Positions 13,570-13,995 of a DNA stretch of 36,841 nucleotides are shown here, piece by piece. The translations under genes and the position numbers were made by a program. Within the stretch, counting starts at the first letter, position 1. Every line of letters starts with the position of its first letter. The notes beneath the pieces are model-generated. The model saw nothing but the letters and a program-made list of their open reading frames with translations, made no database searches and was not told the DNA's origin. The stretch is from Tannerella sp. (GTDB lineage: Bacteria; Bacteroidota; Bacteroidia; Bacteroidales; Tannerellaceae): assembly GCA_031271805.1 (NCBI GenBank), contig JAISUX010000062.1, positions 1 to 36,841 on the forward strand, written 5' to 3'.

Positions 13570-13600
13570 TTTGGTGGTTTAAAATTATGTCATATCTTTG
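13570..13600 (+). promoter_or_regulatory. Promoter of the first susC operon
   Basis: TTTG at 13570-13573 and TATCTTTG at 13593-13600, spaced 19 bases, match the Bacteroides -33/-7 consensus. The stretch from GTAAAAA just upstream to CCGTATGAAG just downstream closely resembles the promoter at 22795-22825. Confidence 0.8.
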
Positions 13601-13629
13601 CACCCGTATGAAGAGATAAAGCAACATTT

Positions 13630-13977
13630 ATGGATCGGGATAAAAAGACATGTCATGCAACACAAAGTGCTGTATTCCAGGGATATGGCAATGATAGTTA
13701 TGCGCATTTATCAAGGAAAAATGCCGCTTTTGGCCTGATTTTTGCAGAGAGAGAGAGAGAGAGAGAGAGAGAGAGAGAGAGAGAGAGACCGTATATAAAT
13801 TATGGTATCGCGTACGCGCGAACGTATGCGCGAATTGGAAACCCCTTTTCAATAAACAATATTTCCGAAATTTTCCCGGCACCGGAATGGAATACCCGTT
13901 GTTGTGCAGCTGTCCGGTCAGGACGGTTGTCGGCAATGTCTATATATACACATACCAATATTATTTTGTTTTTTTAA
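13630..13977 (+). CDS. Open frame in leader A with Glu-Arg repeat (doubtful gene)
   Basis: ATG at 13630 opens 115 codons that include seven Glu-Arg pairs encoded by the GA microsatellite and end at TAA 13975-13977. The frame is the same as that of susC, which starts 18 bases (six codons) after the stop. A related frame of 96 codons lies in leader B and ends at the matching stop. Against a real protein: the homologous TATCGCGT block is read in different frames in the two leaders, and the product (F-G-L-I-F-A-E-R, then R-S-G-R-L-S-A-M-S-I-Y) resembles nothing I know. It may be a translated regulatory peptide coupled to susC, or a chance open frame in a structured RNA. Confidence 0.2.
   Translation: MDRDKKTCHATQSAVFQGYGNDSYAHLSRKNAAFGLIFAERERERERERERERPYINYGIAYARTYARIGNPFSINNISEIFPAPEWNTRCCAAVRSGRLSAMSIYTHTNIILFF
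13747..13788. repeat. (GA)21 dinucleotide microsatellite
   Basis: Twenty-one uninterrupted GA units lie in the middle of leader A. Perfect dinucleotide tracts of this length are rare in bacteria and mutate by slippage, so the tract length may vary between cells. A related but shorter and interrupted tract is at 22960-22989. Confidence 0.95.
13906..13930 (+). promoter_or_regulatory. Conserved RNA hairpin in leader A
   Basis: GCAGCTGTCC (13906-13915) pairs with GGACGGTTGT (13921-13930) over ten pairs including G-U wobbles, with loop GGTCA. The corresponding hairpin in leader B keeps nine of the ten pairs, including one two-sided A-U to G-C change. It ends 65 bases before the susC start and is followed by GTCGGCAATGTCTATATAT. 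Confidence 0.6.
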
Positions 13978-13995
13978 TTTCTAAATTTAATTTTT

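Follow-up and report, generated by a model that had tools for sequence, protein, structure and literature searches.

The closest described system is the pil1 locus of S. gallolyticus, in which GCAGA repeats located in a leader peptide shift the stop codon relative to a terminator and switch the pili, as has been demonstrated with mutants and cytometry (Danne et al. 2014, PMC3894217, in the parts of the paper available). In the simple-repeat promoter rheostats of H. pylori sabA (PMC4081817) and N. meningitidis nadA (PMC2791445), the accessible parts of the sources likewise describe a repeat whose length tunes a surface gene; there the repeat acts via promoter elements, whereas in the leaders analysed here the pattern of reading frames points to translation. 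A search of the literature, limited to the accessible parts of its sources, did not find any repeat-gated susC leader in Bacteroidales. SusC transporters are surface-exposed proteins that help to decide which glycans a Bacteroidota cell eats.

The leaders described here were found before susC genes of a Tannerella sp. genome and in its relatives. On sequence evidence they are read, with a probability of about 0.6, as phase-variable, translation-gated switches. As in pil1 and pil3 (PMC3894217, as far as the parts available go), the repeat is placed inside the ORF of a leader peptide, its unit is not a multiple of 3, and surface proteins are controlled. By analogy, the leaders may work like pil1, from which they differ in the dinucleotide unit (GA or TC instead of GCAGA), the phylum (Bacteroidales instead of a streptococcus with its pili), the number of loci (many per genome, often at susC) and the promoter-like element that abuts the repeat. 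Besides, the evidence for pil1 is experimental and that for these leaders comes from sequence, and terminators are present in about half of the leaders with a sigma54-like element before the repeat (class I) and in few of those with a second motif (class II).

The window, that is, the whole stretch of 36,841 nucleotides that was analysed (contig JAISUX010000062.1, assembly GCA_031271805.1), contains two of these leaders, A and B, with the following features:

13570..13600, plus strand: housekeeping promoter of leader A, with -33 TTTG at 13570-13573 and -7 TATCTTTG at 13593-13600 (read from the sequence)
13630..13977, plus strand: ORF of leader A, 115 codons, running through the GA repeat, with its stop 18 nt before susC
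13731..13746, plus strand: sigma54-like -24/-12 element of leader A, TGGCCTGATTTTTGCA (family pattern, groES control)
13747..13788, plus strand: microsatellite (GA)21 of leader A (read from the sequence)
13807..13833, plus strand: CG-rich segment of alternating purines and pyrimidines 3' of the repeat in leader A (read from the sequence)
13996..16983, plus strand: susC A (TIGR04056)
17005..18975, plus strand: SusD-type gene A (PF07980)
22795..22825, plus strand: housekeeping promoter of leader B, with TTTG at 22795-22798 and TATCTTTG at 22818-22825 (read from the sequence)
22852..23142, plus strand: ORF of leader B, 96 codons, running through the repeat, with its stop 18 nt before susC
22944..22959, plus strand: sigma54-like element of leader B, TGGCTTGATTTTTGCA (pattern match)
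22960..22989, plus strand: microsatellite (GA)9 AA (GA)5 of leader B (read from the sequence)
23002..23019, plus strand: CG-rich segment 3' of the repeat in leader B (read from the sequence)
23161..26289, plus strand: susC B (TIGR04056)
26302..28353, plus strand: SusD-type gene B (PF07980)

The order of the blocks is housekeeping promoter, leader ORF starting with ATG, sigma54-like -24/-12 element, (GA)n microsatellite, CG-rich segment and susC. The distance from TTTG to TATCTTTG is 19 nt in leaders A and B alike, and in both of them GATTTTTGCA makes up the -12 half of the sigma54-like element. The sequence-only reading had proposed two susC leaders built from common blocks in a common order, and this is borne out at the positions above, with a mean column identity of 81% over the aligned stretch of the two leaders; both genes belong to TIGR04056 and have SusD-type genes (PF07980) next to them. 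Its statement that no regulator gene lies in the window also agrees with the Pfam scan, where none of the 18 window proteins scanned matched a regulator family. The region upstream of leader A (window positions 2552-13515) encodes a fimbrillin-like protein, two heparinase II/III-like proteins, a GH88 protein, a DUF2264 protein, an MFS transporter, a URO-D-like protein and a Gfo/Idh oxidoreductase, and looks like a polysaccharide-use cluster.

Despite their different repeats, each of the two leaders has a single ORF that goes from its ATG to a TAA located 18 nt before susC. The sequence-only reading mentions neither this ORF nor the sigma54-like nature of the GATTTTTGCA block. The stops of the other two frames, relative to the susC ATG, lie at -200 and +23 in leader A and at -167 and -94 in leader B. 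Judged by the position of the stop 18 nt before susC, both leaders are in the predicted long phase. The products of the two ORFs have no match in Pfam or NCBIfam. The terminator scan, carried out on leader A, gave no clear terminator and one weak match on the opposite strand; neither leader clearly carries an intrinsic terminator or the hairpin of the family.

Further copies in relatives, whose absence had been named as a point against the proposal, were found in the window's family and among other Bacteroidales. When one mismatch to the motif ATTTTTGCAGAGAGAGAG is tolerated, it is present in 22 of 123 genomes from the family to which the window belongs; 21 of these 22 are of the window's own genus. 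From the matching genomes 54 distinct sites were drawn, leaders A and B among them. A fuller pattern, searched in one genome per species (84,980 species), yielded at least 118 stretches; among the matches listed (80 of at least 118) all are Bacteroidales MAGs, named Tannerella, Tannerellaceae, Prevotellaceae, Dysgonamonadaceae or Bacteroidales. Their isolate codes suggest that these MAGs may be of termite-gut origin. A downstream ORF could be named in 92 of 126 class I sites, the other 34 being mostly at contig ends, and 45 of these 92 match the SusC of the window at 1e-5. Eight downstream proteins other than SusC were scanned with Pfam: three are HU-type DNA-binding proteins, one is an ECF-type sigma factor, one a TIG/NHL protein, one a fasciclin protein, and two have no match. 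The one DUF6266-like protein scanned had no Pfam match. The labels DUF6266-like, HU-like and SusE-like, where given to downstream proteins, are tentative and based on motifs.

The upstream half of the class I leaders combines a promoter with an open frame. The box TAnnTTTG precedes the repeat in 100 of 118 family sites (22 in the reversed control and 16 in the shuffle), mostly by 100-150 nt, and it is also recovered by a blind motif search. From an ATG after the box, an ORF of at least 20 codons enters the repeat in 90 of 92 box-bearing sites (11% in shuffles), and among nonredundant class I sites the leader ORF reaches the repeat without a stop in 75 of 82 (dinucleotide shuffle 14.0, maximum 26). 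This ORF enters the class I motif in one frame at 80 sites and in the other two at 6 and 5. A conserved leader protein was ruled out, because the mismatches between leader peptides are only slightly uneven over codon positions 1, 2 and 3 (377/429/497 in 153 pairs) and the frame of entry into the motif varies. What the leaders keep is openness and not a peptide, on which the constraint is weak. After the repeat, CGCG appears in 39 of 70 family leaders (mononucleotide shuffle 9).

The element that ends at the repeat has in class I the consensus TGGCAYG-ATnn-TTGCA, obtained from a set partly conditioned on the motif. In 51 of 54 sites a GG is present at the exact sigma54 spacing from the GC of TTGCA (GG-N10-GC), and the search had not required this GG. 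The pattern of variation is not that of codons: changes occur at position 2 of AYG and position 1 of YTT, whereas GGC and GCA are invariant. As a control, 20 of 20 groES loci of the genus, read by eye, show TTTGGCA and GG-N10-G(C/T) with no GA tract, and groES has been reported as sigma54-dependent in B. thetaiotaomicron (PMC12316311, in the accessible part of that source). The leaders are thus like Bacteroidetes sigma54 promoters such as groES in having a TTTGGCAY-type -24 element at the right spacing, to which they add the housekeeping promoter, the ORF and the repeat. The rpoN gene is present in the genome under study and in 38 of 41 genus genomes. The PF00158 activator domain was found in 41 of 41 genus genomes but also in 14 of 14 controls, and the matches that count are the strong ones of the own genome (E about 1e-66 to 1e-73). 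On these comparisons, the class I element is very probably a binding site for sigma54 polymerase, and by lying inside the leader it probably adds a conditional promoter.

The strict pattern TGGCNYG-N4-TTGCA has 5 matches in the own genome versus 2 in the control; 3 of the 5 are outside the window, and the one of these that was inspected is inside a transporter-like gene. GGCAYG-N4-TTGCAGAGAGAGAG, searched at phylum level, matched 0 of 395 genomes; this pattern also misses leaders A and B, and hence the result is no proof of absence. Two further motifs were seen in these regions. In a search for activator sites, a TTTTTCTtaCAtA-like motif was found in the family about 55-82 nt upstream of TTGCA, in all three reading phases and shortly after the leader ATG. 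In the groES upstream regions (L211-L230), TTTGGCA at sigma54 spacing is accompanied further up by a AAAATGNCAG-like block, which is perhaps an activator site.

The good match to sigma54 promoters raises another explanation, a rheostat in which the -24/-12 element is the output promoter, transcription starts inside the GA tract, repeat length tunes promoter escape or the 5' end of the RNA, and the ORF is secondary. The unrequested GG in 51 of 54 sites, the likeness to groES and the wide presence of rpoN are what it would predict. In addition, a sigma54 start inside the repeat would yield transcripts without the start codon of the leader, which counts against a translation-gated switch. However, this explanation gives no role to the frame signal described below, and the class II leaders have another motif, and the (TC)n leaders another motif and another repeat, class II still keeping the ORF and frame pattern. 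As the sole explanation, a sigma54 start is weakened by these two groups of leaders, and the rheostat is considered unlikely.

Since the repeat unit has 2 nt, adding or losing one unit always changes the frame. In the frame analyses, for which gene starts were chosen mechanically, 36 of 66 nonredundant class I leaders have a frame that continues after the repeat without a stop until 35 nt or less separate it from the gene ATG (shuffle 8.5, maximum 14; antisense strand 9). Of 102 class I leaders, a set not deduplicated, 47 have an intrinsic terminator downstream of the repeat and upstream of the gene (shuffle 3.2). Among 28 nonredundant leaders that have one, leader A with its doubtful hairpin included, 26 possess a frame that runs through the whole terminator (shuffle 13.1, maximum 19 in 200 rounds), and in 24 an additional frame is closed no more than 25 nt after the repeat (shuffle 9.9, maximum 17). 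This last arrangement, which does not apply to leaders A and B, resembles that of pil1 and pil3 as given in the available parts of PMC3894217, where one frame stops before the terminator and the others in it or beyond it.

Against a switch it can be said that few leaders were assembled in the phase of a through frame (11 of 71 in class I, 10 of 51 in class II), and that in 14 of 74 class I and 12 of 53 class II leaders the gene itself is read in the open frame, so that these leaders could encode additional N-terminal residues of its product. Other through frames often have their stop in an ATGA that overlaps the gene start (10 of the 40 ends listed for class II and 3 of 35 for class I), a configuration that points to translational coupling. 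The length of the GA tract modulo 3 is evenly distributed (30/32/25). This even spread no longer speaks against a coding switch, because a lottery yields just such a spread and because of the through-frame tests.

These data also bear on the proposal, made from the sequence alone, that the conserved blocks represent a functional RNA. The leader is indeed a real and widespread element, outside Rfam and very probably regulatory, but it is an element of a different kind: the tightest constraint falls on a promoter-like DNA motif, the GA tract forms a microsatellite within an ORF, and the strongest downstream signal comes from the openness of the reading frame and not from base pairing, even though family hairpins do exist in the form of the terminators. 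In a set of six terminators all 14 pairs are kept, with two compensatory changes, and 22 of 500 shuffles do likewise. A structured regulatory RNA acting like a riboswitch would fit these terminators of about half of class I as well as a tendency to form hairpins, with a mean z against mononucleotide shuffles of -0.79 immediately upstream of the -24 element and of -1.3 downstream of the repeat. Nevertheless, the conserved blocks read as promoter plus repeat, and after the repeat only terminators and the CG-rich segment are common to the leaders. Rfam gave 0 matches at gathering score within the window, in agreement with the earlier statement that no known family is recognised; on this result a riboswitch or other known RNA family was rejected. 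A structured regulatory RNA of a riboswitch-like kind is considered very improbable.

The frame pattern is not exclusive to class I. Directly before other GA tracts of the genus there is a second motif, approximately TTAATTAAC-N9-GTTGGTTA...TATTTnTTA, with a partial dyad (L235, L245, L255 and others). The class II set comprises 84 sites from 30 loci plus 60 further regions, mostly new, and shares two leaders with the terminator-frame set. A -7 box is present in 69 of 81 class II leaders (control 9), and an ORF enters the repeat in 78 of 81 (shuffle 8.4), or in 68 of 70 when only nonredundant leaders are counted (shuffle 9.4, maximum 13). In 36 of 52 leaders a frame without a stop extends to 35 nt or less from the gene (shuffle 6.7, maximum 10), as it does in 35 of 50 nonredundant ones (shuffle 6.8, maximum 11; antisense 7). 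A simple attenuator is disfavoured in class II, where only 3 intrinsic terminators were found and early stops are no commoner than in shuffles (30 of 52 leaders versus 37). A third form of leader has the same layout with (TC)n in place of (GA)n and another upstream motif (C48; L236, L251, L252, L256).

In the own genome, which is 86% complete and has 56 SusC matches, there are seven places with (GA)9 or longer once the 107 overlapping matches are accounted for, and all of them are at susC-type genes. They are leaders A and B, the class II leaders C85 and C108 (L321, L322), the (TC)27 leader C48, and the loci C82 and C37. The susC of C85 is truncated and falls short of the cut-off score of its family. 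None of the frames of C48 (L324, plus strand, near 816) passes through the hairpin, the longest ending just before it. C82 (L320, about 400-520) carries (GA)20 inside the N-terminus of susC and in frame, a layout which, by its sequence, is that of classic coding phase variation; C37 (L323, minus strand) resembles it, with the coding start lost to the contig end.

It could still be argued that the leaders are passive relics, that is, that microsatellites drift in leaders derived from few duplicated ancestors, whose open frames are inherited and not kept. Many leaders are visibly paralogous, and both the slight constraint on the peptide and the even tract lengths modulo 3 would be expected from such drift. 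On the other hand, the frame statistics stand on nonredundant sets and on two promoter-like classes, and every long tract of the own genome is located at a susC-type gene, so that this explanation appears improbable, even more than the sigma54 rheostat.

From the architecture, the frame statistics and the family, we infer translation, slippage, switching and output for the phase-variable, translation-gated switch as follows. The housekeeping promoter would produce the leader mRNA, whose short ORF would be translated into the (GA)n microsatellite. Slippage would add or remove GA units and shift the frame that follows the repeat. In many leaders one frame would then stop within a few codons, and another would continue across any terminator as far as the susC start. 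A ribosome in the long phase may hold the hairpin open, or may shield the RNA and finish beside the susC start, and susC would be expressed; in the short phases, transcription would end early or the translation of susC would be uncoupled. In leaders A and B, which show no clear intrinsic terminator, the output is more likely to be coupling or protection from Rho, and in class II the output may be coupling because terminators are few.

Because relatives carry many such leaders, these bacteria may switch surface genes on and off at random. If true, a frame lottery in many susC leaders would explain cell-to-cell differences, and the pil1 mechanism of streptococcal pili would be at work in another phylum. 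The length of the GA tract should then vary within populations, and susC output should follow this length modulo 3. A broader and more tentative proposal, possible though somewhat doubtful at present, is that leader ORFs gated by microsatellites throughout the genus give a combinatorial, random repertoire of susC genes, in which a regulated promoter ending at the repeat (sigma54 or the second class) joins a sensed signal with the frame lottery.

Some G093 contigs (C41, C136 and C234 among them) end in the GA tract or soon after it. GA repeats seem to break assemblies, so the leader counts given here would be lower bounds. Locus L078 (G098:C161, 950 minus and 1549 plus) has a pair of class I GA leaders, about 600 bases apart and on opposite strands.
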